A stretch of 64,000 nt of DNA from Alphaproteobacteria bacterium (GTDB lineage Bacteria; Pseudomonadota; Alphaproteobacteria; UBA828): positions 1 to 64,000 of the forward strand of contig WTGU01000124.1 in the NCBI GenBank assembly GCA_011523425.1, written 5' to 3'. Below are positions 48,324 through 64,000 of this stretch, one piece after another. Position numbers and translations under genes: made by a program. Within the stretch, counting starts at the first letter, position 1. The number at the start of each line of letters is the position of its first letter. The notes beneath the pieces are model-generated. The model was not told the origin of the DNA and ran no database searches. It saw only the letters and a list, made by a program, of their open reading frames with translations.

Positions 48324-49202
48324 TTACCAGACGAAGGTCGCGAGGGCGGCGCTGGGCCTGACGCCGGCGGCCCGGCAGGCGTCTTCCAGGGCCCGGGCGC
48401 CCGGCGGCTCGCCGGGGGCGAGGCCGAGCGTATCGGCGAGCAGGCCGCCGGTGATCAGGAGCGAATCGAGGCCCGCAGCGGCGGCGCCGGCGATGTCGGT
48501 GGCGAGCCCGTCGCCGACGGCGAGCACGCGTGCGGGCGCGAGACCGAGAGCCGCCAGCGCCAGGTCGTAGACCTCGGGATGGGGCTTGCCGAAATGGCGC
48601 ACGCGGCCGCCGAGCGCCTCGTAGCGGGCGGCGAGCGCGCCGGCGCAGGGCTCCTGGACGCCCAGCCGGATCACCAGCAGGTCGGGATTGACGCAGATCA
48701 TGGGGAGGTCGCGGGCGACCGCCGTCTGCAGGATCGGCTCGTGGTCCTCGACCGTGTCGCGCCCGTCGTCGAGGCCGATGCCGAGCAGGAAGTCCGCCCC
48801 GGCGATGTCGGCGGCAGCGTAGCCGAGACCGTCGAGCAGATCGTCGGAGCCGGGCGGCCCGAGCAGCAGGTAGCGGTGTCCGAGCCCGTCGAACCGCGCG
48901 CGCGCGCGGTCGGCGAGCGCCTGGCGCGCGGCGTCGCCGGAGGCGACGACGGCATCGTAGTGCGCCGCTTCGACCCCCTTTCCGCGCAGCACGGCCTCGA
49001 CCTGGGCCGCGAGCCTGGGGGCGTTGGAGACGAACACCACCCGCTTGCCGGCCGCGCGCAGATGGCGGAGGCAGTCGAGCGCCTCGGGATAGGCCGGCCC
49101 TCCCTGATGCATCACGCCCCACACGTCGAGGATGCAGCCGTCATAGTCCGCCATCAGCGGGGCCAGGCCGGGGAGGATCGGGATGCCGGTCGAAACGTTC
49201 AC
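48324..49202 (-). CDS. TIGR01459-type HAD-IIA hydrolase
   Basis: A 292-residue HAD phosphatase of class IIA. The nucleophile segment reads YDGCILDVWGVMHQGG, with the aspartate before Val-Trp-Gly; VFVSNAPRL (motif II), the lysine in HFGKPHPEVY (motif III), and AVGDGLATDIAGA (motif IV) complete the active site. The family is common in alphaproteobacteria with no firm substrate. GTG 49202 is chosen because it gives the usual length; an upstream GTG at 49235 is possible. It precedes the YeeE gene. Confidence 0.86.
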   Translation of the reverse strand: MNVSTGIPILPGLAPLMADYDGCILDVWGVMHQGGPAYPEALDCLRHLRAAGKRVVFVSNAPRLAAQVEAVLRGKGVEAAHYDAVVASGDAARQALADRARARFDGLGHRYLLLGPPGSDDLLDGLGYAAADIAGADFLLGIGLDDGRDTVEDHEPILQTAVARDLPMICVNPDLLVIRLGVQEPCAGALAARYEALGGRVRHFGKPHPEVYDLALAALGLAPARVLAVGDGLATDIAGAAAAGLDSLLITGGLLADTLGLAPGEPPGARALEDACRAAGVRPSAALATFVW

Positions 49203-49265
49203 GGGGCGCTCACCGCGGGCCCGTGGGCGACGCACCGAGCGCCGCGGCCTGTGCGGGCCACGACC

Positions 49266-50351
49266 CTAGCTGCGTCCGCCATCGTCGCCATGCGGATAGA
49301 ACTGCCTGCAGTAGCGCCGGTATCTGCCGATGGGACCGTCGGAGCCGCAGAGGCTTGGATGGGGCCGGTAGCTCTTCTTCCCCCAGATCACGACATCCTG
49401 GAGAACGTCCTGTTTCTGTATGGAAAGCAGAAACCTGTTCATGATCCCGGTGCGCGCCTTCACCGGCAGGAATCCGAGGCCGGCGATGAATCGCCTTGGC
49501 TTTCGCAGCATACGGACCTGCGAGACCAGAACGAGGTCGACGAGCGTGCCGTCGACCGGCGTGGTTAGAACCCACAGGCGGGTCTCCATGCCGACGGTGT
49601 GCTCGTGGATGTCGACGAACGAGTAGCCCAGTCCGTGGACGTAGGTGGCGGCCGACACGTCGAAGACGAGGTCGATGACTCCGGCGATACGCGTGCGACG
49701 CCTGAAGTCGAAGCAGCTCACGAGACGTGCGCCGTCCACCGTCGCCGATCCGACGGGGTTCACGTTGTCGTAGCCGTGCACGTAGCGCAGGTGGGCCAGG
49801 TCCACCGAGTTCTCTGTCGTCTCCTGAGGATGGCCGGGAAACCGGAGGGTCTCGACTTCAAGCTCGCTCCACTCGTCTCCGGCCGGCGGCTCTTCGGGAA
49901 GGTCCCATTGCGGCGGGCGTCCGTCGATGCCCCACCAGGCGAAGACGAGGCCGAGAATCTCGCGCGTGGGGAAGACGCTCAGCCTCGTGCCCTTGGGCGG
50001 CGGCGCATAGGGTGTCGCGACGCAGGCGCCTGTCGCGTCGTAGGTGAAGCCGTGAAAGGGACACACCAGTCGGCCGTCGCGCACGCGCCCGCCGGCGGCG
50101 GGGCTCAGGGAGGATCCCAGGTGGGGGCAGAGCGACCGGGCGACGCAGACGGCTCCCTCGTCGTCGCGCCAGACGACGATGTCCTGCCCCATCCACTGCT
50201 TTTCGATCAGTTCGCCCTTCGCTAACGAGCGACGGTCGGCGACGAAGTACCACCCTTCGGGAAACGGGAAGAGGGAGGGATCGTCGCCGCCCGCGATCAG
50301 ATTCTCTTCCACGTCTTGCGGGACACTCTGTCGATGAAGATGCATCTGCAT
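49266..50351 (-). CDS. Rieske [2Fe-2S] aromatic-ring/steroid-type oxygenase
   Basis: A Rieske non-haem iron oxygenase of 361 residues from ATG 50351 (384 from ATG 50420; neither start has a good ribosome binding site). The Rieske cluster ligands are CPHLG (Cys75, His77) and CPFHGF (Cys97, His100). The mononuclear iron site is ENSVDLAHLRYVHGY, with Asp184, His187 and His192 by that numbering. The ENSVDLAHLRYVH pattern resembles steroid-oxidising Rieske enzymes such as KshA and DAF-36/Neverland, so a sterol- or terpenoid-like substrate is a fair inference. Electrons would come from an external reductase that is not in the window. It opens the unusual lipid cluster, facing away from the RND gene. 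Confidence 0.88.
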   Translation of the reverse strand: MQMHLHRQSVPQDVEENLIAGGDDPSLFPFPEGWYFVADRRSLAKGELIEKQWMGQDIVVWRDDEGAVCVARSLCPHLGSSLSPAAGGRVRDGRLVCPFHGFTYDATGACVATPYAPPPKGTRLSVFPTREILGLVFAWWGIDGRPPQWDLPEEPPAGDEWSELEVETLRFPGHPQETTENSVDLAHLRYVHGYDNVNPVGSATVDGARLVSCFDFRRRTRIAGVIDLVFDVSAATYVHGLGYSFVDIHEHTVGMETRLWVLTTPVDGTLVDLVLVSQVRMLRKPRRFIAGLGFLPVKARTGIMNRFLLSIQKQDVLQDVVIWGKKSYRPHPSLCGSDGPIGRYRRYCRQFYPHGDDGGRS

Positions 50352-50676
50352 GGCAAGGACCGTCGGCCCGGAGTGCAGGGCGGCATATGGTCGTGGGGCA
50401 TCGAACCCCGTCCACGCCATACCGGATTATGTGGTGAGCGCGCAACACGTCGCCAACCGCGGCGAGCGTGCGTGGATCGCGGTCGCGCGCCCGCGCAGCC
50501 GCCGCAAGCCGGGCGGGTTCGCCCGAGAGAGCGATGGACAAGGGATCGGGAGGCTGTGATACTGCCGTGGAAATGCTCCCGATTCTGGAGTCGCCACACG
50601 GCTTCCGGCTGCATCGACGGCGAGCGGGAAGCGCGTCAGAGCCACTCCCCGACTGACATCTGACGACGCACCATTC
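50352..50676. other. 325-bp divergent region between the Rieske and RND genes
   Basis: No gene was found here other than the possible extension of the Rieske gene to 50420. The region between the two divergent starts should hold the promoters of both, but no clear -35/-10 pair or operator was seen. The composition is less GC-biased than nearby genes. Confidence 0.5.
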
Positions 50677-53037
50677 ATGAAATACCTCCCCTCCGGCATC
50701 GATTTGGACTCCTCCATAGCGCACGTTATGCGTCGCCGGTGGCTGACCATTTTGCTCTCCGTGATCGTCATGCTGTTGCTTGCCGCAGGTGCCCAGAACC
50801 TCGTCAGTGTCGACGTCGATTCTCGCAATCATTTCAGTAAAGACGACCCGAATCTTGTCGCGCTCGAGCAACTGGAGGGCACCTACGCCATCTCCGACAC
50901 CATGCTGGTTGCCTTGGCGCCGAAGAGCGGCACCGTCTTCACGCAGGAATCGCTCCTTGCCATAGAAGAATTGACCGAGGCGCTGTGGCGCACGCCTTAT
51001 GTCATCCGCGTCGATTCACTTGCTAACTATTCACACAGCGAAGGTCTCGAGGACGAGCTGATCGTCGAGTCGCTTATCGACGACGCCGCTGCGCTGAACG
51101 ACGACGACATAGAGCGGATCGAGAGTATCGCGCTCGGTACCGAGGAGATTGCCGGGCGCCTGATTTCCCGGGACGGCCGCGTTGCCGGGCTGATCGTCAG
51201 CGCGGCGATCCCCGACGAGGAGCGAGAGCAGGCCAAGCTGGACGTCGTCGACTACCTCAACGCCGCCACCGCCGAGGCGCGAACGAAGCATCCGACCCAC
51301 GGGTACTACCTGACCGGCGAAGTCTTGCTCAATCGCGCGGTTCGCGACGCGCTCAACGAGGACATGGGCCTGCTCGGCCCCATCGCGCTCGGGGTCATGC
51401 TGCTCGTTGCCCTGCTCATGCTGCGCACGATCTGGGGAATCGTCGCGATCGTCCTGATGATCATTGCGGTCGTCATATCCGCGTTGGGCTTCGGCGGCTG
51501 GGCAGGCATGAAGCTCTACGGCGAGAGCGGGGCGGCGCTGTTCGTCCTGATGGCGATCACGGTCGCCCATTGCGTGCACATCATAGAGGCAATGCTGGCG
51601 GGCCTGCGCCAGGGAATGGACCGCAGACAGGCGGCGATTCACTCTCTGAAGCTCAACGTGTGGCCCGTATTCCTGACGTCGATCACGACGGCGATCGGTT
51701 TCCTCAGCCTGAACTTCTCCGAGATGCCGCCGTTTCGGGTCATGGGCAATATCGTCGCCTTCGGCTCGCTGTCCGCCTTCGTCTTTTCGGTGACGCTCCT
51801 GCCGGCTTTCCTGTCTCTCATGCCCCTGCGCGTCCGGCCCGCCAAGGCCGGGAAGACCGATTATTTCGACCGCTTCTTCGAGCGTTTCGGGCGCTTCGTC
51901 GTGTCCCGCCGCATTGTCATGCTGGCTGCCTTCGGCGTCCTCGTCGTGGCGCTGGTTGCCGGCATCTCGCGCATCGAACTCGACGACAATCACCTCGAGC
52001 TTCTCAGCGAAAGCTACGAGTTCCGGCGAGCCACGGATTTCGTGAGCGACAATTTCTCCGGCCTGGAGCCGTTCGAGTACTCGCTCGAGTCCGGGCAAGA
52101 GGGCGGCATCACGGATGTCGGCTATCTGAAGCAGGTCGACGCGTTCGCGGAGTGGTACCGGGCGCAGCCCGAAGTCGCTCATGTCTTCGGCGTCACCGAC
52201 ATCGTGAAGCGCCTGAACAAGAATCTGAATGGCGACGATCCGGAGTTCTACCGCATTCCGGACGACACCGAGCTCGCCGCCCAATACCTGCTGCTTTACG
52301 AATTCTCTCTGCCGGTGGGCCTGGACCTCAACAACCTGATCGACGTCGAACGGTCGGCGACCCGCCTGACGGTCGTCCTGAAGGCGCTCTCCGTCAACCA
52401 GAAGCTGGAGCTCGACGAGCGCGCGCGCGACTGGCTGCGCCAGAATGCGCCTGGCCTGGAGACCGGCGCCGCCGGGATGACGATCGTCGGGGCGCACTCG
52501 ATCAACAGAAACATCGAAAAGATGCTGATCGGCACCATCACGGCGATGGGCATCGTCTCGCTGCTGCTGATCTTCATCTTCAGGAGCGTGCGCTTCGGCC
52601 TGATCAGCCTGATACCGAATTTCGTCCCGGCCGCCATGGCGATGGGGCTGTGGGGGTATGCGGTGGGACAGGTCGGAGTCTCGGCGTCCGTCGTCACCGC
52701 CATCGCCTTCGGCATCATCGTGGACGACACGATTCACTTCATGACCAAGTATCTGAGAGGCCGGAAGAACGGGCAGTCGCCGGAGGAATCCGTCCAGTCC
52801 GCATTCGGCACGGTCGGCAAGGCGCTGCTGGCGACGACCGTCGTGTTCGCGCTGGGTTTCATGGTGTTCGGCGCATCGGGGATGGCGAACAACCAGGCGC
52901 TCGGTCTGCTGGCGGGAACGACGGTCATCATCGCTCTCCTGGCGGACTTCCTGTTCCTGCCGCCGTTGCTCATGATTCTCGATAGAAGAAAGGGGACGAG
53001 CGGAGCGACCAAGGTGGCGAGCGAGGAGAGCAATTGA
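50677..53037 (+). CDS. RND superfamily exporter (MMPL/COG1033 type)
   Basis: A 786-residue efflux protein of the COG1033 type. One helix (about residues 21-38) is followed by a large periplasmic loop to about 220, then six helices including GESGAALFVLMAITVAHCVH, a second loop (about 425-610), and six more helices with AIAFGIIVDDTIHFMTKYLRGR. The FGIIVDDTIHF segment is the RND proton-relay region of MmpL and HpnN-like lipid exporters. The domain is related to sterol-sensing domains. It is the first plus-strand gene of the cluster, and two envelope proteins follow it, so export of a lipid made by the neighbouring oxidases is inferred. Confidence 0.9.
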   Translation: MKYLPSGIDLDSSIAHVMRRRWLTILLSVIVMLLLAAGAQNLVSVDVDSRNHFSKDDPNLVALEQLEGTYAISDTMLVALAPKSGTVFTQESLLAIEELTEALWRTPYVIRVDSLANYSHSEGLEDELIVESLIDDAAALNDDDIERIESIALGTEEIAGRLISRDGRVAGLIVSAAIPDEEREQAKLDVVDYLNAATAEARTKHPTHGYYLTGEVLLNRAVRDALNEDMGLLGPIALGVMLLVALLMLRTIWGIVAIVLMIIAVVISALGFGGWAGMKLYGESGAALFVLMAITVAHCVHIIEAMLAGLRQGMDRRQAAIHSLKLNVWPVFLTSITTAIGFLSLNFSEMPPFRVMGNIVAFGSLSAFVFSVTLLPAFLSLMPLRVRPAKAGKTDYFDRFFERFGRFVVSRRIVMLAAFGVLVVALVAGISRIELDDNHLELLSESYEFRRATDFVSDNFSGLEPFEYSLESGQEGGITDVGYLKQVDAFAEWYRAQPEVAHVFGVTDIVKRLNKNLNGDDPEFYRIPDDTELAAQYLLLYEFSLPVGLDLNNLIDVERSATRLTVVLKALSVNQKLELDERARDWLRQNAPGLETGAAGMTIVGAHSINRNIEKMLIGTITAMGIVSLLLIFIFRSVRFGLISLIPNFVPAAMAMGLWGYAVGQVGVSASVVTAIAFGIIVDDTIHFMTKYLRGRKNGQSPEESVQSAFGTVGKALLATTVVFALGFMVFGASGMANNQALGLLAGTTVIIALLADFLFLPPLLMILDRRKGTSGATKVASEESN

Positions 53038-53082
53038 ACGGCGCGGACGCGTGTCCCCATTCTCGGAGGTGAGGTGGGCGGG

Positions 53083-54348
53083 ATGATCGCGCGCTTCCCC
53101 GTCGCTCTTTCAGCGCTTGGCCTGCTGGTCTCGCTGCTCGCGACCGGCGCACACGCCGACAACGGGATCATTGATTATTTCGAGCTTTCCGGGCGCTATT
53201 CGCCGGAAACCCGGCTCTACCCCGAGACTCCCGCGTTTCCCGACCAGCGTTCCCATGCGAGCGGGTTTGCCGCGGAGATCACTGCCTACATGGAGGACGA
53301 CGAGGGTAGAAGCGTCACGATCACGCCCTTCTACCGCTTCGACGCCGGGGATCCGGAGCGCACCCACGCCGATCTCCGCGAGGCCTTTCTTCTCCTCTAC
53401 GGCGACATCGGCGAGGACGAATGGGAGCTGCGGCTCGGCGTCGATCGCGTGTTCTGGGGCGTCGTCGAATCGCGCTCCCTGGTCGATATCGTCAACCAGA
53501 CCGACCTGGTGGAGCACCCGGACGAGAAGACCAAGCTGGGCCAGCCGATGGCCCACGTCACCCTGTCGGGAGACTGGGGGGCGGTGGAGCTGTTCGCGCT
53601 GACCGGGCACCGCAAGCGCACCTATCCGGGCCGCCACGGCCGCCTGCGTCCCGCGCTGGTCGTGGACCACTCGCTGACCACGTACGAATCCCAGAATGAG
53701 GAGTGGCATGTCGATCTCGCCGGCCGCTACACCGGCAGCGTCGGCCCGCTCGATATCGGGCTCAGCGCGTTCGACGGCACCAGCCGCGAGCCCACCCTGC
53801 TGCCGATGCTGGCCGGCCGCGAGCTCGTTCTGGCGCCGTATTACGAGCAGATCCAGCAGTTCGGCCTGGATACCCAGCTCACCACCGGCCCCTGGCTTCT
53901 CAAGCTGGAAGCCATTCACCGCGCCGGCGCGCAGAACGCCCGGCTCGATCAAACCCTCAACTACGAGGAAGAGGACTACGCGGCCTTCGTCCTGGGCGGC
54001 GAGTACGCGATCTATTCCCCTTGGGAGCTCGACTCCGAGCTGACCCTGATCGCCGAATGGACCCACGACGGGCGAGGCCGCTGGGCGACCAACGCGTTCG
54101 AGAACGACCTGCTCCTCGTCGCGCGCCTCGGGCTGAACGACGAGCAGAGCACCGAGTTCGTCGGCAGCGTCCTGAACTCCCTCGAAAACAGCAGCCGGGT
54201 TCTTGGCGCCGAGTTCAAGCGCCGCCTCTCGGACAGCCTGTCCCTGCATGTGGAGGCCGCCGCCTATGTGGGGATCGACGAGAACGACGCCGCCTATGTC
54301 GCGCGGCGGGACAGCTACATCGGGGTGAACCTGGACTACAACTTCTGA
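53083..54348 (+). CDS. predicted outer-membrane beta-barrel protein
   Basis: A 421-residue exported protein. It has a clear Sec signal (MIARFPVALSALGLLVSLLATGAHA, cleavage after about residue 25) and a body of short amphipathic strands with alternating residues, ending in NLDYNF, a C-terminal phenylalanine typical of outer-membrane barrels. No named domain was recognised; it resembles the barrels that accompany COG1033 exporters. ATG 53083 follows GGAGGTGAGG. It lies 45 bases after the RND gene. Confidence 0.7.
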   Translation: MIARFPVALSALGLLVSLLATGAHADNGIIDYFELSGRYSPETRLYPETPAFPDQRSHASGFAAEITAYMEDDEGRSVTITPFYRFDAGDPERTHADLREAFLLLYGDIGEDEWELRLGVDRVFWGVVESRSLVDIVNQTDLVEHPDEKTKLGQPMAHVTLSGDWGAVELFALTGHRKRTYPGRHGRLRPALVVDHSLTTYESQNEEWHVDLAGRYTGSVGPLDIGLSAFDGTSREPTLLPMLAGRELVLAPYYEQIQQFGLDTQLTTGPWLLKLEAIHRAGAQNARLDQTLNYEEEDYAAFVLGGEYAIYSPWELDSELTLIAEWTHDGRGRWATNAFENDLLLVARLGLNDEQSTEFVGSVLNSLENSSRVLGAEFKRRLSDSLSLHVEAAAYVGIDENDAAYVARRDSYIGVNLDYNF

Positions 54349-54514
54349 TCCGGGTTGTCGCCGGCCCTCCATGCGCCGGGCGGGAATCGTGCTACCATGT
54401 GCCAGCAGGTTCCGGCGAAGGTGAACGAGATGACACGGCCCAGTCGCTGCCCGGACACCGCCGCCGGTTTTCCGCTTTCCCCGCTCCGCTGATGGCCACC
54501 GACAGGAGGAAACG

Positions 54515-55336
54515 GTGATCCGCGTCTCTTCCCCCTACCTGTTGCTCGCGCTCTTCGGGATCTTCGTTGCCGTCCTTGCCTGGGCGGTCGAGCCGCCGCT
54601 CTCCCGGGCGGCCGAAAGTGCCGAGGAAGCCGGGCTCAGGATCGCGACCGACGCCCGCGAGCGCGAGAAGGGTTTCGGCAATTTCACCGCAAGCCTCAAC
54701 ATGGTCCTGCGAAACAAGCGCGGGCAGGAGAGCCGGCGCGAGCTTCGACTGCAGGTCATCGAGGTCGAGGGGGACGGCGATCGCACCATGTTCGTGTTCG
54801 ACCGGCCGCGCGACGTCAAGGGAACGGCGTTTCTCGTCCATGCCCACAAGGACGAGCCGGACGAGCAGTGGCTCTATCTTCCCGCCCTGAAACGGGTCAA
54901 GCGCATCAGTTCCTCGAACCAGTCCGGCTCCTTCATGGGCAGCGAGTTCGCTTACGAGGACCTGGGCGCCTCCGAGATCGAGAAGTACGCGTACACGTAC
55001 CTGCGCGACGAGCCCTGCGGCGAGCTCGAATGCGTCGTGGTGGAGCGTGTCCCGCTCGACCGGAAGTCGGGCTACTCACGTCAGATTGTCTGGTTCGACC
55101 AGGAGGAGCTTCGCGTCCAGCAGATCCAATTCCACGACCGCAGGGACGCGCACCTCAAGACGATGGTCGTGGAGGGCTACCAGATGTATCTCGATCGCTT
55201 CTGGCGGGCCAGCAAGATCACCATGACGAACCATCTCACGGGAAAGAGCACCGAGCTGCACTGGCTGGACTACGAGTTCGGCACCGACCTCGACGTGGGC
55301 GACTTCACCAAGACCGCCCTGAAGCGCATCCGATAG
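54515..55336 (+). CDS. LolA-like outer-membrane lipoprotein-sorting protein
   Basis: A 273-residue exported protein of the outer-membrane lipoprotein-sorting (PF17131-like) family. A signal or anchor segment (YLLLALFGIFVAVLAWAV, residues 8-25) is followed by ERLRL-like beta strands, TMFVFDRPRDVKGTAFLVHA, EQWLYLPALKRVKRISSS, SGSFMGSEFAYEDLG and KTMVVEGYQMY, all usual in the family. GTG 54515 has the strong GGAGGAAACG site. LolA-fold proteins carry lipids in a hydrophobic half-barrel across the periplasm, which fits between the RND pump and the outer-membrane protein. Confidence 0.85.
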   Translation: MIRVSSPYLLLALFGIFVAVLAWAVEPPLSRAAESAEEAGLRIATDAREREKGFGNFTASLNMVLRNKRGQESRRELRLQVIEVEGDGDRTMFVFDRPRDVKGTAFLVHAHKDEPDEQWLYLPALKRVKRISSSNQSGSFMGSEFAYEDLGASEIEKYAYTYLRDEPCGELECVVVERVPLDRKSGYSRQIVWFDQEELRVQQIQFHDRRDAHLKTMVVEGYQMYLDRFWRASKITMTNHLTGKSTELHWLDYEFGTDLDVGDFTKTALKRIR

Positions 55337-55406
55337 GTTCGGGCGGCATCGGGCCGCGCCGGCCCGCCCTCCTGGCCGACAAGTCACCGACCGACGCGGC
55401 GCGGCG

Positions 55407-56765
55407 ATGCCGAGACGGGTTGCCATAGTCGGCGCAGGGATCTCCGGACTGGCGGTGGCCTGGGCGCTCGATCGTCACCCCGATCGCTTCGACTTTCGCC
55501 TGTACGAGGCGCAGGCTCAGGTCGGCGGCAATGCCATCACGGCCGACATGCCGCAGGACGACGGCACCTCGATTCCGTTCGATATTTCCGTCACCGCGTG
55601 CATTCCCTCGGTGTACCACCACATCGTCCTGCTCATGCAGCAGCTCGGTATCGACCTGATAGATACCAGGTTCAGCTACAGCGTGAAGTATCGCGGCGGC
55701 GTCTACGCGCACGATTTCGACTCCGACATCAGGAGGCAATTGCAGCCGGAAATCGAGAAGTTCCAGCGGCTGCTGCGGCGCCTGCGCTGGTTCGGCCGCC
55801 TCAATCGGAGCAGGTCCAGACTGCTCAACGCCTTCAACCCGTACAACTACGTCAGCATGGGTGCGATTCTCAATCTGGGACGGTACTCCGGCGACTTCAG
55901 GTACAAGATACTGAAGCCGATGTTCGTCAACTTCCTGATGGCGACGAACGTGTTCGACATGCCTGCGTCCCTGTTCTCCCGCTATCTCGAGTTCTTCGAT
56001 ATCGAGACCGCAACGCCGATGCAGACCTGGGACCGGGGCACGCGGCGCATCTACGAGGCGCTGTCGGCCGCCTTTCGGGACAGGATCTACCTCGAGCGAC
56101 CGGTGCGGAAAGTGTATCGGCGCGCAGGCGAAGTCGTCGTGGAGGACGAGAACGGAGAGACCGAGACGTTCGACGATGTCGTCTTCGCCTGCAACGCCAA
56201 TCAGACGCTGATGATGTTGGACAAACCGACCTTCATGGAGAGCAGCCTTCTCTCTTCGATCCGCTACGAGAGCGAGCTGCACAACCACACGGTCGTCCAT
56301 TCCGACGCGTCGGTTCTTCCCGACAACGAGGTCGAGCCGCTCGCGACGCGGAGCAATCACATCGAGCAGTACGGGGCGAGGCCCGACAATTACGAGATCA
56401 CCTATATCATGCACAATCAGCAGCCCTGGGTGCACCGGTCGGACAAGCCGTGCCTGGTGACCTACAACCCGATCAGCCGTATCGACGAAGGCAAGGTCAT
56501 CAAGAGGTGGTGGTTTCAGCACATCGTGCACGACGTGCCCCACGTGGCCATCCTGATCCACCTGTTCCGCTTCGTTCAGGGCAAGCGGCGGACGTGGCAC
56601 TGCGGCGCCCACACTCTGGTCAACAGCCAGGAGACCTGCTTCGTCACCGGCCTCGTCACCGCGAGGCAGCTCGGGGCGGACTATCCGTTCGAGGATTCCG
56701 AGGCGCGCAAGTGGTTCAACTTCTACGGCCGCACGATGTACGGCCGGCGCTTCAGGAAGGCGTGA
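55407..56765 (+). CDS. FAD-dependent oxidoreductase, COG2907/amine oxidase type
   Basis: A 452-residue flavoprotein. The dinucleotide motif is VAIVGAGISGLAVAWAL, followed by the YEAQAQVGGNAITADMP second FAD segment, and it ends with GLVTARQLGADYPF. The overall pattern is that of COG2907 and phytoene-desaturase-like enzymes; one characterised relative, UfaD, oxidises fatty acyl chains during furan fatty acid formation. No cyclopropane synthase or DUF1365 gene is next to it, which is the usual COG2907 setting. It is convergent with the P450 gene, 19 bases apart. The substrate is probably a lipid, by context only. Confidence 0.82.
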   Translation: MPRRVAIVGAGISGLAVAWALDRHPDRFDFRLYEAQAQVGGNAITADMPQDDGTSIPFDISVTACIPSVYHHIVLLMQQLGIDLIDTRFSYSVKYRGGVYAHDFDSDIRRQLQPEIEKFQRLLRRLRWFGRLNRSRSRLLNAFNPYNYVSMGAILNLGRYSGDFRYKILKPMFVNFLMATNVFDMPASLFSRYLEFFDIETATPMQTWDRGTRRIYEALSAAFRDRIYLERPVRKVYRRAGEVVVEDENGETETFDDVVFACNANQTLMMLDKPTFMESSLLSSIRYESELHNHTVVHSDASVLPDNEVEPLATRSNHIEQYGARPDNYEITYIMHNQQPWVHRSDKPCLVTYNPISRIDEGKVIKRWWFQHIVHDVPHVAILIHLFRFVQGKRRTWHCGAHTLVNSQETCFVTGLVTARQLGADYPFEDSEARKWFNFYGRTMYGRRFRKA

Positions 56766-56784
56766 GCCTGGCGAAAAATCCGGG

Positions 56785-58812
56785 CTAGACGGGCAGCTCG
56801 CGCGCCTGCTCGGCGACGCGGAATTTCAGCTTCCGGTTCGGAGACATCGACGGAAACGGGTTGATCCGGAGCTTGTAGTTCTTCGGCGACACCTCGAGCG
56901 TGAAGTAGCGCGCGATCATCAGCAGGTTGACGGTGAGCTGCATTTCCATCCAGCGGAAGCCGAGACACATGTGAGTGCCGAGCCCGTAAGGCGCGTATCC
57001 GGGGCTGCGGTGCTCGTTGCGCGGCGGCAGGTAGCGGTCGATGTCGAACTTGTAGGGCTCCGGGAAGACGTCGCTCATGTAGTGCGGGGCCGTCTGGGCG
57101 ATGACGATGCGCGCCCCCACCGGAAGCTGGTAGCCCTCGATGACGCACGAGTTCATCACGTTGCGAATCGACGCGGGCACCACGGGGTACATGCGCATGC
57201 ACTCCATGATGAAGCGGTTCGTGACGTCGAGGGCCGACTTGGTGTAGGCCGCCCCGTCCGGGTCGCCGTCGGCGAACAGGGCATCGGCCTCGCCCCGAAT
57301 CCGGCGGTAGAGTTCGGGCTGTGACGCCATGGCATAGAGGCCGAAGCCCAGCGCATCGCCGAGGTACATGCTGGCGAGCATGGGTGCCGACAGATAGAAC
57401 GCCATGTTCGACTCGGGGAGGAATTGCGGGTCGCTGGCATGGAGGCTGAGCATGTCGTCCGCGAGGGTGCGCGGGCAGCCGGACCTCTGCGCGGGCGTGT
57501 GGACGTTCAGGATCCGTTGCACCGCCACTTCGATGGCCCTGGCAGGCTTCTTCATGCCCGGGGTGTGCAGCATGAATTTGGGCAGGACCCTCGCGACGTG
57601 GGTGGTGAGCGCCCGCTCCTTGAACTTGATCAGGTCCTCCACGATGTCCTGCGCCTCGATGCTGAGAATGACGGGCGCTATCTGCGCGTTGACCATGAGG
57701 CGGCAGGTGGCGGTGCCCGGCAGGGTCGAGCCCACCTTCCAATCCGCCATGAATGCGCGAATGTGTCCGTAGAGGGCGTCCAGCTCTCCCTCCAGCCTCT
57801 CGCGAGAATAGCCCGGCTGCATGGCCTTGCGCTGCCGGAAGTGATCGGCGCCGTCGAGGGAGGGGATCAGCCCGGAGGCGCCGTAGACTTTCTCGACATC
57901 GGTGAAGTAGTCCTTGGATCTCAGGTACATCCGCCCGTTGCGGTGGAGCCAGCGGTTGGTGGCGGCCCCGGCCAGGAAGGTCACGGTCTCGCCGAATGGC
58001 GGACGGATCTGAAACACCGGCCCGTACTCTTGCGCGAGCCCGGCGCAGATTCCGGGGATGTTGCGATCGCGCATGTGTCGATTGAGCAGCAGCTTGTGCC
58101 ATGGAACGACCGGAATCTTCTTGGTGAAGGCGGCGTGTCGAAGCAGTGGGCTGGCGATGTTCGCTTCGACCGCATCGGCGATGGAGCGGCCGATCAGGTC
58201 CATCCTGCAGATGAACGTGATGCGCTCTTCCGCCTCGTCGTCGAGGTCGAAAATGAAGCGAAACACGTCGCAGGTATTGACGAGGCAGATGATGATGATG
58301 TCTCTCGGATCGGGGATCGCCTCGGTGAAGATGTAGACGCTGATGCGCGTCTTGATGAACTGATCCGGGGTGTCATCGTCGAGGTGGCCGTACTGGTCGG
58401 AGTAGCGGCTGGTAGGGGCCAGGGTCCAGAAATCGCCGTCGTGGTGCTTCAGGATCTTGAGATCGACCAGGCGGTCGAGAGTCAGGTCGATGATCGAATC
58501 CGCATGGGCGGCGAGTCGCTCGATCCAGTACTGGGCGTTGTGCCGAACCGGCTCGTCCGCGATTTCCTTCAGAATGGGATCAAGCGCCGGGTTTCCCGTT
58601 TCCGTCCGGTCCACCAGGAGCAGCGACTCCATGTCCGTGTCGATGCGCTCGAGGAGGGACAGTTCCGCCAGTACCGCGCCGACGACGGCGCAGTTCAGTT
58701 CCCAGCCCTGGACCTGGTGAAAGTAGCCTGTCTCCTCGTTGAGGAGCATCAGGATGAGCTCCTCGGGCAGCGTCAGGGATTGGGATGCCAGACCCTCGGT
58801 CGAATCAGCCAT
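56785..58812 (-). CDS. GPP34 domain - cytochrome P450 fusion protein
   Basis: A 675-residue protein with two domains. Residues 12-225 form a GPP34 (GOLPH3-like) domain: LTLPEELILMLLNEETGYF, WELNCAVVGAVLAELSLLER and DPRDIIIICLVNTCDVFRF. From about residue 235 a full cytochrome P450 follows, with HFRQRKAMQ (helix C), the ExxR in MECMRMYP, FPEPYKFDIDRYLPP, and the haem loop YAPYGLGTHMCLGF with Cys616. The I-helix reads ASMYLGDALGFG, which lacks the usual Thr of the AGxxT motif. GPP34 binds PI4P and sorts glycosyltransferases in eukaryotes; in bacteria its role is unknown, but membrane or lipid binding is plausible. AAGGAGG precedes ATG 58812. Confidence 0.93.
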   Translation of the reverse strand: MADSTEGLASQSLTLPEELILMLLNEETGYFHQVQGWELNCAVVGAVLAELSLLERIDTDMESLLLVDRTETGNPALDPILKEIADEPVRHNAQYWIERLAAHADSIIDLTLDRLVDLKILKHHDGDFWTLAPTSRYSDQYGHLDDDTPDQFIKTRISVYIFTEAIPDPRDIIIICLVNTCDVFRFIFDLDDEAEERITFICRMDLIGRSIADAVEANIASPLLRHAAFTKKIPVVPWHKLLLNRHMRDRNIPGICAGLAQEYGPVFQIRPPFGETVTFLAGAATNRWLHRNGRMYLRSKDYFTDVEKVYGASGLIPSLDGADHFRQRKAMQPGYSRERLEGELDALYGHIRAFMADWKVGSTLPGTATCRLMVNAQIAPVILSIEAQDIVEDLIKFKERALTTHVARVLPKFMLHTPGMKKPARAIEVAVQRILNVHTPAQRSGCPRTLADDMLSLHASDPQFLPESNMAFYLSAPMLASMYLGDALGFGLYAMASQPELYRRIRGEADALFADGDPDGAAYTKSALDVTNRFIMECMRMYPVVPASIRNVMNSCVIEGYQLPVGARIVIAQTAPHYMSDVFPEPYKFDIDRYLPPRNEHRSPGYAPYGLGTHMCLGFRWMEMQLTVNLLMIARYFTLEVSPKNYKLRINPFPSMSPNRKLKFRVAEQARELPV

Positions 58813-59344: not shown

Positions 59345-60649
59345 ATGAAAGTCCGTCATCTGCTGATAGGCGCCGCAGTCGCCACGGCGGCCGTCTGGTC
59401 GCTTACGACCGCCGCACCTGCCGCCGACCCGATCAAGGTCGGCTATATCGGCTCGTTCGACACCGACACGGGCAAGAGCACGATCCGGGGCACCGAGATC
59501 GCCATCGAGGAAATCAATGCGGCCGGCGGGGTGCTCGGCGGGCGCATGATCGAGCTGGTCAAGGCCGACACGCGCGAGGACGTGCAGGAGGGTATCAAGG
59601 CTTATGAATACCTGAACGAGGTCGAGAACGTCGACTTCATCATCTCGGGCTGCATCGACGACGTGTCGCTGGGCTGGCTCGAGCGCATGGCGGAGTACCG
59701 GACGCCGACCCTCGACACCTGGACCTCCTATGTCGGCATCATCGACAAGGTCGTCGAGGAGTACGAGAAGTACAAGATGTACTTCATGAACGTCTCCAAC
59801 GACTACGCGCTGGCCATCCTCTACGTCGACTTCGGCAAGGACGTGCTCTCCAAGAAGATGGGCTGGAAGACGGTGTACGTTCTGCAGGAGGACACCGCGT
59901 TCGGCGGCGGCGTCTACGAGCTGATCGAGCAGGTGCTCGCGCCGGAGGCGGGCATCGAGATCATCGGTCACACCGTCTACGACACCAACACGGTCGACTT
60001 CGGCCCCATCTACAACAAGGCGGTGGCGGCGGAGCCCGACTTCATCTACTCGATCGCGGCGGTGCGCAGCCAGGTGCCGGCCTCGCAGTACGTGAAGCTC
60101 GAGGTGCCGGTGCCGATGACCGGGATCAACGTCTCGGCCTTCGCCCGGGAGTTCTGGGACGACACCGGCGGCCTCGGCGGCGGCATCTCGACGCTGAGCC
60201 CGGTGCCCTCGATCGGCTCGGAAATCGACCCGCGCACTCAGGACTTCCTCGATAGGTACAGCGCCAAGTACGGCGATTCGCGGCCGGTCTTCCCGCACTT
60301 CAACGGCTTCAACGCCTACTACGGGATGCTCAACGCCTTCGCCGCGGCGGAGCGCGCCGGCGGCTTCGATCCGCTCGACGACTGGGTCCGCGAGATGGAG
60401 AACGACGATATCGTCGTCGAGAAGGACGGCGAGATCTGGCTCCGCTACGCCTTCTGGAAGCCGGGCGAGATCGAGCCCCGCACCCAGCGGGAATACACCC
60501 ACAACATCAAGTTCGACATCAACCCGCCCTACGACGAAGGGGCGCCGTCGATGGTGGTCATCCAGTGGTACTCGGACGGCTCCACCAAGGTCGTCTACCC
60601 GCCGAAGTACGCCAACGGCGAGTTCGAGGTGCCGGACTGGCTCAAGTAG
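59345..60649 (+). CDS. ABC transporter substrate-binding protein (branched-chain amino acid/amide class)
   Basis: A 434-residue periplasmic binding protein of the Leu/Ile/Val class (type 1 fold). The signal peptide is MKVRHLLIGAAVATAAVW to about residue 27 (APAAD). The mature protein opens with PIKVGYIGSFDTDTGKS, then GTEIAIEEINAAGGVLGGRM and VDFIISGCIDDV. Members bind branched-chain amino acids, urea, short amides or aromatic acids, so the ligand is open. GAGAGG precedes ATG 59345. It heads a complete importer operon. Confidence 0.9.
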   Translation: MKVRHLLIGAAVATAAVWSLTTAAPAADPIKVGYIGSFDTDTGKSTIRGTEIAIEEINAAGGVLGGRMIELVKADTREDVQEGIKAYEYLNEVENVDFIISGCIDDVSLGWLERMAEYRTPTLDTWTSYVGIIDKVVEEYEKYKMYFMNVSNDYALAILYVDFGKDVLSKKMGWKTVYVLQEDTAFGGGVYELIEQVLAPEAGIEIIGHTVYDTNTVDFGPIYNKAVAAEPDFIYSIAAVRSQVPASQYVKLEVPVPMTGINVSAFAREFWDDTGGLGGGISTLSPVPSIGSEIDPRTQDFLDRYSAKYGDSRPVFPHFNGFNAYYGMLNAFAAAERAGGFDPLDDWVREMENDDIVVEKDGEIWLRYAFWKPGEIEPRTQREYTHNIKFDINPPYDEGAPSMVVIQWYSDGSTKVVYPPKYANGEFEVPDWLK

Positions 60650-60664
60650 GTCGGCTAGTCACTC

Positions 60665-60695
60665 ACCGGGCGCGACTTTACGGGTCGCGCCCGGT
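60665..60695 (+). terminator. intercistronic hairpin after the binding-protein gene
   Basis: ACCGGGCGCGAC and GTCGCGCCCGGT form a perfect 12-bp stem with a 7-base loop, followed by TTGCCTTG. Its position between the binding protein and the permease suggests partial termination or 3'-end protection that keeps the binding protein more abundant than the membrane subunits. Confidence 0.75.
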
Positions 60696-60787
60696 TTGCC
60701 TTGCTGGAAGTGCGCCGGGGTCGCCCGTGATCGGAGCGCCCCGGCCTTCGTGCGAACGCTGACCCGACGGCCCGCGAGCGAGCTCTG

Positions 60788-61642
60788 ATGGCGCTCCAGA
60801 TCCTGATCCAGGGGTTCGTGCTCAGCGGCCTCTATGCGCTGATCGCCGTCGGCTTCACCATGATCTTCAGCGTCGGCCGGGTGCTGAACCTGGCCTACGG
60901 CGTCTACATCATGCTCGGCGGCTACATCTACTACGCGGCCCTCCAGGAGGCGGGGCTGCCGGTCTTCGCGAGCTTCATCCTGGCGATTCTGGCGGGCGTG
61001 ACCTTCGGCCTGCTCACCTACATCCTTCTGGTACGCCGGCTGGAGGACAACCCGATCGCGGTCGAGATATCGACACTGATCCTCGCCGTCGTCATGCAAG
61101 CGCTGATCGTGGTGATCTTCGGCGCCGCACCCAAGACCATGTGGCCGGTGATTCGCGGCGTGCTCCGCTACGAGGGCGTCTCGGTCACCATGAACATCCT
61201 GCTGGCGACGGGCGTGAGCTGGGTGGTGCTCGGGGGCCTCATGGCCTTCGTCCGCTACACCCATCTCGGCCGCGCCATCCGCGCGGTCTCCATGGACCGC
61301 AAGGGTGCGGTGATCTCGGGCATCGAGCCCAGCGTCATCAGCATGGTGACCTGGGCGCTCAGCGGCGCCTTTGGAGCGATCGCGGGCGTCTTCTTCGCGA
61401 CCTTCACCCAGCTCGACTCCCACATGTGGGTGTTTCCGCTCATCATCTCGGTGGCGGTCGTGATCGTCGGCGGCATCGGCAGCATCGTCGGCAGCCTGAT
61501 CGCGGCCCACATCATCGGCTTCGTCGAGACCATCACGACTACCTTGATCGCGGCCGAGCTGCGCGGCGTCTCCACCATGCTGCTGATCATCCTGGTGCTG
61601 CTGGTGCGGCCCAAGGGCCTCTTCGGCAAGGCGGAGCTCTGA
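60788..61642 (+). CDS. branched-chain amino acid-type ABC permease (LivH family)
   Basis: A 284-residue permease with about eight membrane helices. LIQGFVLSGLYALIAVGFTM at the N-terminus, LNLAYGVYIMLGGYIYY, RTHLGRAIRAVS-like (YTHLGRAIRAVSMD), and GGIGSIVGSLIAAHIIGFVE match LivH. It pairs with the LivM-like permease four bases downstream. Confidence 0.92.
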   Translation: MALQILIQGFVLSGLYALIAVGFTMIFSVGRVLNLAYGVYIMLGGYIYYAALQEAGLPVFASFILAILAGVTFGLLTYILLVRRLEDNPIAVEISTLILAVVMQALIVVIFGAAPKTMWPVIRGVLRYEGVSVTMNILLATGVSWVVLGGLMAFVRYTHLGRAIRAVSMDRKGAVISGIEPSVISMVTWALSGAFGAIAGVFFATFTQLDSHMWVFPLIISVAVVIVGGIGSIVGSLIAAHIIGFVETITTTLIAAELRGVSTMLLIILVLLVRPKGLFGKAEL

Positions 61643-61645
61643 GCG

Positions 61646-62599
61646 ATGGCCGTCGACCGCGAGACGCTGCGCTATCTCGGCTGGTGGCTCGCCTTCGGCG
61701 TGCTCATGTGCCTGCTGCCGCTGGTGGTCGGCACCGGCACGCTGCGCATCCTGATCTTTGCCCACTTCCTGGCGATGTTCGCCATGAGCTGGGATTTCCT
61801 CTCAGGCAGGACCGGCTACATCAGCTTCGGCCATCCGTTCCTCATCGGCATCGCCGGCTACACCACGGCGATCCTGAGCTTCCGCTTCGACGTCCCGATC
61901 TACTACAGCATCCCGGCGGCGGTGGCGGCGACCATGGTGGGCGGCACGCTCTTCTTCCTGCCCGCGCTGCGCATCCGCGGCACCTACTTCGCGCTGGTGA
62001 CGCTTGCCTTCATGGAGATCCTCTACCAGCTCACCAAGGTCGTGGCGCCCAAGATCACGGGCGGCACCAGGGGCATCTCGGGCCTCGAGAGCATCGTCTC
62101 CGGTGCCGTGAACAACTACTACCTCAGCTTCGGCATCATGTTCGTGATCGGGGTCGTGCTCTGGCTCCTCATCCGCACGCGCCTCGGCATCGCGCTGAGC
62201 GCCATCAGGATGAACGAGGAGGCGGTCCGCAGCACCGGCCACAACACCACCAAGCTCAAGCTCTTCGCGTTCACGGTGAGCGCCGCCGTCTCCGGCATCG
62301 GCGGCGCCTTCTACGTCCATTACATCGGCTCGATCGCGCCGCGCGGCATGTTCGAGATCAGCTTCCTCTTCACCATCCTGGTCGCGGCGCTGCTCGGCGG
62401 GGCCGAGACGATCATCGGTCCGATCATGGGCGCCTACTTCCTGACCGTCCTGCTCGAGTATCTCCGGCCGGTGATGCCGGGCATGGAGCGCTATCTCCTC
62501 TACGGCGGCATCGCGCTGGTGCTCTACGTCGTCAAGCCCGAAGGCATCTACGCCATCATCGCCGACGCCGGCCGCAAGGTGCAGGAGTGGCGGCGATGA
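61646..62599 (+). CDS. branched-chain amino acid-type ABC permease (LivM family)
   Basis: A 317-residue permease. LAMFAMSWDFLSGRTGYISFGHP near residue 38 is the LivM hallmark, followed by ALRIRGTYFALVTLAFMEI and RTRLGIALSAIRMNEEAVRS. About nine membrane helices are visible. It overlaps the first ATPase gene by four bases. It should form the channel with the LivH-like subunit. Confidence 0.92.
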   Translation: MAVDRETLRYLGWWLAFGVLMCLLPLVVGTGTLRILIFAHFLAMFAMSWDFLSGRTGYISFGHPFLIGIAGYTTAILSFRFDVPIYYSIPAAVAATMVGGTLFFLPALRIRGTYFALVTLAFMEILYQLTKVVAPKITGGTRGISGLESIVSGAVNNYYLSFGIMFVIGVVLWLLIRTRLGIALSAIRMNEEAVRSTGHNTTKLKLFAFTVSAAVSGIGGAFYVHYIGSIAPRGMFEISFLFTILVAALLGGAETIIGPIMGAYFLTVLLEYLRPVMPGMERYLLYGGIALVLYVVKPEGIYAIIADAGRKVQEWRR

Positions 62600-63333
62600 C
62601 CGAAGGCCCGCTGCTGGAGGTGCGCGACCTCCACATGACCTTCGGCGGCATCCGCGCCGTGCAGGGAATCTCCTTCCAGGTGGCGGAGGGCGAGACGCTC
62701 GGCCTGATCGGCCCGAACGGCGCCGGCAAGACGACCGTCTTCAACATGATCATGGCGGAGCTCAAGCCCACCAAGGGCGAAATCTGGTTCAAGGGCGAGA
62801 ACGTCACCCGCGTGCCCACCCACGAGCGGGTCAAGCGCGGCATCGCGCGCACCTATCAGGTCCCCCAGCCCTTCGGCGAGATGTCGGTGGGCGCCAACAT
62901 CCGCGTCGGCATGGCGCCGGACAACCTCTGGAAGCTCGTCGCCGAGGGAGCGGACCAGGCGGCCGAGGCGGAGATCGGCCGCAGCGTCGGCTTCTCCGAC
63001 GAGCAGATCGAGAGGCTGCCGAGCGAGCTCGCCATGGGCGACCTGCGCCGGCTTGAGATGGCGCGCAACGTCGCCGTTTCGCCCAGGCTGCTGCTGCTCG
63101 ACGAGGTCTTCGCCGGCCTGACCCTGAAGGAGATCGCGCAGATCTCCGAGCTGCTGGTGGAGAAGAAGCGCAGGGACGGGCTCACCTACATCATCGTCAG
63201 CCACGATCTGCGCGCGTTGGCGCCGCTCGTCGACCGGGTCATCGTCATGTCCTTCGGCGCCATCATCGCGGAAGGCACGTTCGACGAGGTGGTGAAGGAC
63301 GAGGCGGTGCGCGATGCCTATCTCGGACAGTAG
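62596..63333 (+). CDS. ABC transporter ATPase (LivG family)
   Basis: A 245-residue nucleotide-binding subunit. Walker A is LIGPNGAGKTTVFN, the Q-loop lies in TYQVPQPFGEM, Walker B is LLLLDEVFAGL and the H-loop histidine is in IIVSHDLRAL. The signature helix reads SELAMGDLRRLEMARN instead of LSxGQ; LivG relatives with LxxGDxxRLE are common, so I do not read it as broken. It starts on an ATGA overlap at 62596. A long frame open back to 61141 is not part of the gene. Confidence 0.92.
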   Translation: MTEGPLLEVRDLHMTFGGIRAVQGISFQVAEGETLGLIGPNGAGKTTVFNMIMAELKPTKGEIWFKGENVTRVPTHERVKRGIARTYQVPQPFGEMSVGANIRVGMAPDNLWKLVAEGADQAAEAEIGRSVGFSDEQIERLPSELAMGDLRRLEMARNVAVSPRLLLLDEVFAGLTLKEIAQISELLVEKKRRDGLTYIIVSHDLRALAPLVDRVIVMSFGAIIAEGTFDEVVKDEAVRDAYLGQ

Positions 63334-63354
63334 GAGCGGGAAGGGGAGGGGATC

Positions 63355-64000
63355 GTGGCGCTCCTGAGCATCGGCGACCTCGATGTCTTCTACGGCCGCG
63401 CCCAGGCGCTGCACGGCGTCTCGCTGGAGGTGGAGGCGGGCAGCATCGTCGCCGTCGTCGGCCCCAACGGCGCCGGCAAGTCGACCCTGCTCGATTCCAT
63501 CGTCGGCCTGACGAGGCGGCGCGGGCAGATCACCTTCGCCGACACGGACATTACCCGCATGTCGCCGGCGCGGATCATCCGGCTCGGCATCGGCTATGCG
63601 ACGGAACGCGGCAACCTCTTCCCCTTCATGGGGGTGAAGGAGAACCTGCTCGTCGGCGCCTATCGCAAGCGCGATGCGATCGAGGCCAACCTGCGCACCG
63701 TGTTCGACCTCTTCCCCCGGCTCGAGGAGCGGCAGAAGCAGGAGACCGCGACCCAGTCCGGCGGGGAGCGCCAGATGGCATCGCTCGGCCGCGCGCTGAT
63801 GTCGAGTCCGACGCTGCTCATGGTGGACGAGCCGACGCTCGGCCTCGCGCCCCGCGTGTGCCTCGAGATCGCCGCCGTGCTCAAGGACCTGAACGAGCGG
63901 CTCGGGCTCACCATCGTGATCACCGAGCAGAACGTGAACTTCGCCATGAGCCTCGCGCGGGAGGTCTACCTGCTGGAGACCGGCCGCATCGGCGAGCCGA
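63355..64000 (+). CDS. ABC transporter ATPase (LivF family), 3' truncated by the window edge
   Basis: The first 215 codons of the second nucleotide-binding subunit, from GTG 63355 behind GGGGAGGGG. Walker A is VVGPNGAGKSTLL, the signature reads QSGGERQMASLGRAL, Walker B is LLMVDEPTLGLAPRV and the switch region ends ITEQNVNFAM. The gene continues past base 64000. It completes the usual K-H-M-G-F order of a LIV-class importer. Confidence 0.93.
   Translation, partial: MALLSIGDLDVFYGRAQALHGVSLEVEAGSIVAVVGPNGAGKSTLLDSIVGLTRRRGQITFADTDITRMSPARIIRLGIGYATERGNLFPFMGVKENLLVGAYRKRDAIEANLRTVFDLFPRLEERQKQETATQSGGERQMASLGRALMSSPTLLMVDEPTLGLAPRVCLEIAAVLKDLNERLGLTIVITEQNVNFAMSLAREVYLLETGRIGEP

Follow-up and report, generated by a model that had tools for sequence, protein, structure and literature searches.

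Sterols are usually credited to the animal host. Sponge sterols serve as some of the oldest chemical signs of animal life, although the making or altering of sterols by symbionts is debated (Brown et al. 2023, PMC10070321). In Ircinia symbionts, clusters of steroid genes (CSG), with the core ERG24-CYP51-lanosterol synthase and often flanked by a sterol methyltransferase (SMT), have spread over about 10 phyla by horizontal gene transfer (Kelly et al. 2022, PMC9531527). The SMTs of sponge-associated bacteria adjoin sterol genes and are active in vitro (PMC10070321). In Methylococcus (SdmA/SdmB and BstA/B/C), a Rieske oxygenase and an RND-type transporter are encoded with sterol genes (PMC10942540), and an SdmA-like Rieske protein is also present in msb of Melophlus (PMC7074536). 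Both the occurrence of sterol clusters among sponge symbionts and the transfer of these clusters are already published (PMC9531527, PMC10070321); what is new here is the sterol link of a different block of genes, located at positions 49266–58812 of the window, i.e., the whole 64,000-nucleotide stretch analyzed (alphaproteobacterial assembly GCA_011523425.1, contig WTGU01000124.1, positions 1 to 64,000).

The block consists of six open frames, all present at exactly the coordinates given in an earlier note on this DNA, which encode a Rieske oxygenase, an MMPL/RND transporter, an outer-membrane barrel candidate, a LolA-like carrier, a flavoenzyme and a fusion of a GPP34 domain with a cytochrome P450. 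Pfam assigns a family to five of the six, the exception being the barrel candidate. This block is probably a module that tailors and traffics sterols in sponge-associated bacteria and moves between them by horizontal transfer. For the oxidoreductase/transporter module itself, no description was found in the open-access literature, nor was any paper that links GPP34 with P450, or with sponges in a relevant way; a term search of the text of Kelly et al. (PMC9531527) finds no mention of GPP34 or Rieske, and the main text of Brown et al. (PMC10070321) mentions neither P450 nor Rieske nor GPP34.

Like the CSG, the block is associated with sterol genes of sponge symbionts, and the genome from which the window comes possesses a cluster of the CSG kind on another contig, C51. 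However, the block itself lacks the contiguous ERG24, CYP51 and lanosterol synthase genes that define the CSG (ERG24 and SMT queries have no match in the window) and instead contains the KshA-like Rieske protein, the flavoenzyme, the GPP34-P450 fusion and the transporters. The SMT clusters of Brown et al. similarly combine sponge-bacterial SMTs with sterol genes, but most SMTs adjoining the present fusion belong to a clade without cyclase-adjacent members. The Methylococcus system, in which the earlier note saw a parallel, resembles the block in combining a Rieske oxygenase and an RND-type transporter with sterol genes, but the parallel turns out to be loose. The block Rieske protein scores 41.7 bits on the SdmA model (NF052579; cut-off 600) and carries a KshA_C rather than a VanA_C domain; the MMPL protein scores 40.3 bits on the BstA model (NF045600; cut-off 1400), and its partners are the LolA-like and barrel proteins instead of BstB and BstC, which belong to the phosphonate-binding and TRAP-T families, respectively. 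Homology to SdmA and BstA is accordingly rejected by the curated model cut-offs.

Oxidoreductases and transporters of the block

The Rieske non-heme iron oxygenase (49266–50420, minus strand, 384 aa) contains Rieske and KshA_C domains (Pfam, 1.8e-19 and 2.7e-24, respectively) and a 2-His-1-carboxylate site. The CxH/CxxH ligands of the Rieske cluster (C98, H100, C120 and H123) are intact and invariant in 15 sequences, and so are D207, H210, H215 and D342. The nearest solved structures are those of KshA, 3-ketosteroid 9alpha-hydroxylase (4qdc and 2zyl). Domain architecture, nearest structures and conserved ligands indicate kinship with KshA by sequence and structure; the best alignment with solved KshA, however, mainly covers the N-terminal half, and no HsaC-type catabolic partner is found. 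The flavoenzyme (55407–56765, plus strand, 452 aa) has the FAD-dependent amine oxidase fold (Pfam Amino_oxidase, 2.5e-18), and its nearest solved structure is LkcE (5e-24); its counterparts in other fusion genomes, from various phyla, show 76–90% identity.

The fusion (56785–58812, minus strand, 675 aa) is encoded in a single frame, with the GPP34 domain at residues 15–217 (PF05719, 99.5 bits compared to the cut-off of 29.1) and the p450 domain at residues 247–656; the P450 contains the ExxR motif and the heme-ligand cysteine, Cys616. Eukaryotic GOLPH3, a member of the GPP34 family, is known to bind phosphoinositides and membranes (PMC4414131). The AlphaFold model of the fusion (pLDDT 85.5) yields lanosterol-bound CYP51 (7snm) as the top PDB match, with CYP51 ahead of BM3 in the fold search of the P450 by a narrow margin only. 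Thus, the fusion shares the P450 fold, ExxR and the heme cysteine with CYP51 and bacterial P450s, but differs from them in being joined to GPP34 and in its I-helix. Where the canonical oxygen-activating acid/threonine pair (GxDT) is expected, the fusion has ASM-YLGD: in the alignment, Tyr483 occupies the position of the threonine and the acid residue is missing. This tyrosine is found in all 39 fusion sequences inspected, whereas the threonine is retained in CYP51 (AGQHT) and in the paralogs L119 and L120 (GLDT or ALDT). As far as can be judged from the alignment, the replacement suggests that the enzyme may either use oxygen in an unusual way or catalyze a redox-neutral reaction.

Both paralogs are known from the genus of the window genome. 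L119 (1777–3822, minus strand) is a second, divergent GPP34-P450 fusion with 32% identity and a canonical GLDTT I-helix, with no sterol genes among the neighbors seen; L120 (7780–9462, minus strand) is a P450 that lacks a GPP34 domain and shares 33% identity with the fusion P450; it has matches in several genomes of the genus. The window genome (G000) contains further GPP34 genes on contigs C71, C89, C51 and C11 (L122, L123, L121 and L003). Elsewhere, a tandem pair of fusion genes is present in an Acidimicrobiia record (L046, 9923–14349, plus strand).

The remaining three genes encode a putative transport set. The MMPL/RND inner-membrane transporter (50677–53037, plus strand, 786 aa; Pfam MMPL, 9.9e-37) shows a weak match to the sterol-sensing domain (Pfam, 2.1e-06), and its matches to the HAE3 and HpnN models are below the cut-offs. 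The LolA-like periplasmic lipid carrier (54515–55336, plus strand, 273 aa) is identified by PF17131 (3e-59) and PDB 3bk5 (1.4e-81). The 424-aa frame between them (53074–54348, plus strand) has no Pfam or NCBIfam family matches; its AlphaFold model, with a moderate mean pLDDT of 68, is built almost entirely of strands, apart from a helix at the N-terminus that resembles a signal sequence, and its Foldseek matches are porins and AlgE, so that the protein is a candidate outer-membrane beta-barrel. In other fusion loci, the MMPL relatives adjoining the fusion show 61–81% identity and the LolA-like relatives 50–76%; barrel relatives (40–79%) occur in the fusion loci of Alphaproteobacteria, Gammaproteobacteria and Dadabacteria.

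Distribution, transfer and sterol gene neighborhood

Relatives of the fusion are detected at 38 loci of the genome collection by a scan that is based on short exact peptides and is biased toward close relatives; almost all span both domains, and one ends at a contig edge. The record titles, which are depositor names and may mislabel single MAGs, name at least nine bacterial phyla and include Alpha- and Gammaproteobacteria, Nitrospira, Chloroflexi, Gemmatimonadota (including Longimicrobiales), Dadabacteria, Acidimicrobiia, Bacteriovoracales and Latescibacterota. Most of these titles are traceable to sponge metagenome projects. The jk18x titles denote Caribbean Ircinia MAGs. A study of sponges from the Great Barrier Reef reports Nitrospira SB0677 and labels its sponge samples RHO, IRC and CAR; the same codes in record titles are taken to denote the same hosts. 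The sponge tie excludes the OX638/OX639, CATOTB, APA, COS and CO36388 titles, whose source was not traced to a paper.

No frame of the block is a chance reading frame: each has relatives in other genomes at 39–90% identity, many within 10 kb of the fusion. Among 43 non-redundant fusion loci, the flavoenzyme is a neighbor in 19, the Rieske protein in 18, MMPL in 14, another type of MMPL in 7, the LolA-like carrier in 12 and the barrel in 11. Co-occurrence across genera, proposed in the earlier note as support for a common system, thus extends to several phyla. The six genes do not, however, behave as the one fixed unit that the note described: the full set is seen only in the window and in one close relative (L028, the same contig region as G005, a genome of the window's genus), and a fixed six-gene operon is rejected given that the set is modular, with differing arrangements. 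Chloroflexi share one cassette of flavoenzyme, fusion, SMT, MMPL and Rieske genes; in the loci of Chloroflexi and Acidimicrobiia, the oxidoreductases are present and frequently accompanied by another MMPL, and LolA-like and barrel genes are missing. In G002 and G007, the flavoenzyme and the fusion are encoded on separate contigs. Downstream of the fusion, six Dadabacteria loci (L039, L040, L044, L050 and L064, approximately 14.8–19.8 kb, and L052, approximately 12.3–17.4 kb) have a common run of genes that includes a SpoIIE-type response regulator, a sensor kinase and, between these two, another shared gene.

Horizontal transfer, suggested earlier, is strongly supported by the comparison of protein identities: across the phyla that possess the fusion, the flavoenzyme is 76–86% identical to that of the window, compared to 39–47% for the housekeeping yardstick IspG (63% in G062). 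The P450 tree is in agreement, with Gammaproteobacteria in three separate places and phyla mixed at starred support; the window sequence groups with one Gammaproteobacterium-titled sequence and with Nitrospira sequences at 98–99% SH-aLRT in this quick tree without bootstrap. The low GC content that had been read as consistent with transfer is real with respect to the upstream region (63.8% in the block compared to 70.9%), but it is also low in the 5 kb that follow downstream (65.8%), so that the dip has no sharp boundary. Neither the flanking HAD hydrolase (48324–49235) nor the ABC transporter (from 59345) is seen beside the fusion in other loci, and both are rejected as members of the block. 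The region 59345–63414 encodes ABC transporter genes with an amino-acid/urea-type periplasmic binding protein, and its GC content is below that upstream. Scanning the window for RNAs and tRNAs yields no matches.

The earlier guess of a sterol or terpenoid substrate is backed by the neighboring genes. An SMT (Pfam Sterol_MT_C, sterol 24-C-methyltransferase) is encoded approximately 10 kb or less from the fusion in 29 of the 43 loci, and at least one sterol-specific gene is nearby in 32; the other 11 have none in the surrounding DNA, several of these contigs being short. The SMT (cluster C1) and the ERG4/ERG24 reductase (C13) are recurrent neighbors, the latter adjoining the fusion in Dadabacteria. 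In loci of other families, fetched after the first analysis, SMT, Rieske, MMPL and flavoenzyme genes are again neighbors. The Nitrospira locus L029 contains, in one 12-kb run, the fusion, the flavoenzyme, an epoxidase-cyclase, a CYP51-type P450, ERG24, SdmA and SdmB, i.e., the CSG core lies next to the fusion and the flavoenzyme. In the window genome, these core genes are found on contig C51, in an SdmB-SdmA-ERG24-CYP51-cyclase cluster with an SMT, recognized by the SdmA, SdmB and oxidosqualene-cyclase models below their strict equivalog cut-offs; the C51 Rieske protein, with its VanA_C domain, scores 403.7 bits on the SdmA model. A second SMT is encoded on contig C73. Among 385 alphaproteobacterial genomes, the fusion is present in 6, including the window genome and G392, where it is in pieces (L160 on G392:C35, and G392:C9). 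An SMT is found in 10 of the 385, namely, in all 6 fusion genomes and in 4 of the 379 others (Fisher 5e-11, or 2e-9 minus the window genome, ignoring kinship among genomes from three families). Given that the block adjoins sterol-making and sterol-methylating genes, sterol remodeling and transport is its most likely role.

In a tree of 54 SMTs, a starred branch separates a clade without any cyclase-adjacent SMT. This clade includes the fusion-adjacent SMTs of Gammaproteobacteria, Gemmatimonadota, Chloroflexi, Acidimicrobiia and two Alphaproteobacteria as well as the C73 SMT of the window genome. The opposite side of the branch holds every cyclase-adjacent SMT, together with the fusion-adjacent ones of Dadabacteria and Nitrospira; a single clade for every fusion-adjacent SMT is rejected because the Dadabacteria, Nitrospira and L159 proteins fall on that other side. 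The two clades fit a division of labor, as far as tree topology goes. A cyclase in the sterol score band (E-value of about 1e-52 to 1e-58, compared to 1e-129 or lower for hopene-type cyclases) is found in about 13 of the 34 fusion genomes searched; a closer check, with a model or through a fused squalene-epoxidase domain, covered only those of G000 and L029. No sterol-band cyclase is detected in the single-contig chromosomes G062, G069 and G419, and G062 and G069 encode the fusion and the flavoenzyme, yet no SMT. Such genome-level absences rest on similarity searches of the genome contigs; if they are real, the module in genomes without a cyclase works on imported sterol.

Proposed function and alternative explanations

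From this gene content, we infer a scheme that covers the individual reactions and their order, the membrane anchoring, the transport direction and the substrate source. The substrate would be either made by the cell itself, by the SdmB-SdmA-ERG24-CYP51-cyclase cluster (here on C51), or, wherever a genome has no cyclase, obtained from the sponge or other symbionts. The KshA-like Rieske protein, the flavoenzyme and the GPP34-P450 would act on the nucleus or the 24-alkylated side chain of the sterol, together with an SMT that is usually encoded close to the fusion and here on C73, and GPP34 might tether the P450 to the inner membrane on its cytoplasmic side. The MMPL pump, the LolA-like carrier and the barrel would shift the sterol between the inner and outer membranes; for this set, described earlier as an export system, export, import or a shuttle are conceivable, and import of host sterol is equally possible as export. 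KshA-like and MMPL proteins serve other substrates too, which counts against this scheme.

One alternative is that hopanoids or another bacterial triterpenoid are modified and moved instead, with the MMPL protein as an HpnN analog. The HpnN models match this protein under the cut-offs (114.4 bits compared to 751.85 for TIGR03480 and 52.6 compared to 1100 for NF052374), and a squalene-hopene-cyclase-type gene is present in the window genome and its genus. However, no hopene-band cyclase is found in many fusion genomes (Dadabacteria G068, G419 and G425, and several of Gammaproteobacteria and Gemmatimonadota), and the neighbors SMT, ERG24 and SdmA/B are sterol-specific. This explanation was rejected on cyclase distribution and neighboring genes, and appears quite improbable. 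The same methyltransferases and reductases indicate synthesis or remodeling rather than degradation of host sterols, whereby the Rieske protein would open ring B like KshA and the transporter would import the sterol. Although KshA is the nearest relative, and some Acidimicrobiia loci have catabolic-looking neighbors (acyl-CoA-dehydrogenase-like and luciferase-type monooxygenase genes), the extradiol dioxygenase family that stands in for HsaC exceeds the cut-off in none of 18 genomes (19.6 bits in the window genome, compared to the cut-off of 366). Steroid catabolism, rejected on this one marker family, is thus very unlikely. The least probable explanation is that the genes merely share a transfer-prone island of sponge symbionts and no common pathway: variable order and orientation and the modular set would be expected of such an island, but the same partners recur in varied arrangements across several phyla, and the SMT tracks the fusion genome-wide.

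The evidence is best compatible with a sterol-tailoring and sterol-trafficking module. Within this interpretation, there is a slim chance that the second SMT clade and the unusual P450 perform side-chain or nucleus steps yielding sterols that are at present attributed to sponges and serve as biomarkers of animals; candidate steps are a C-26 methylation, an assignment that is speculation, or a redox-neutral P450 rearrangement. A sterol-tailoring module transferred between phyla among sponge symbionts, and joined by trafficking genes in the diderm lineages, would name concrete candidate enzymes. The block further reveals a clade of P450s whose oxygen-activation site is altered, and it places a GPP34 domain in a putative bacterial lipid enzyme.
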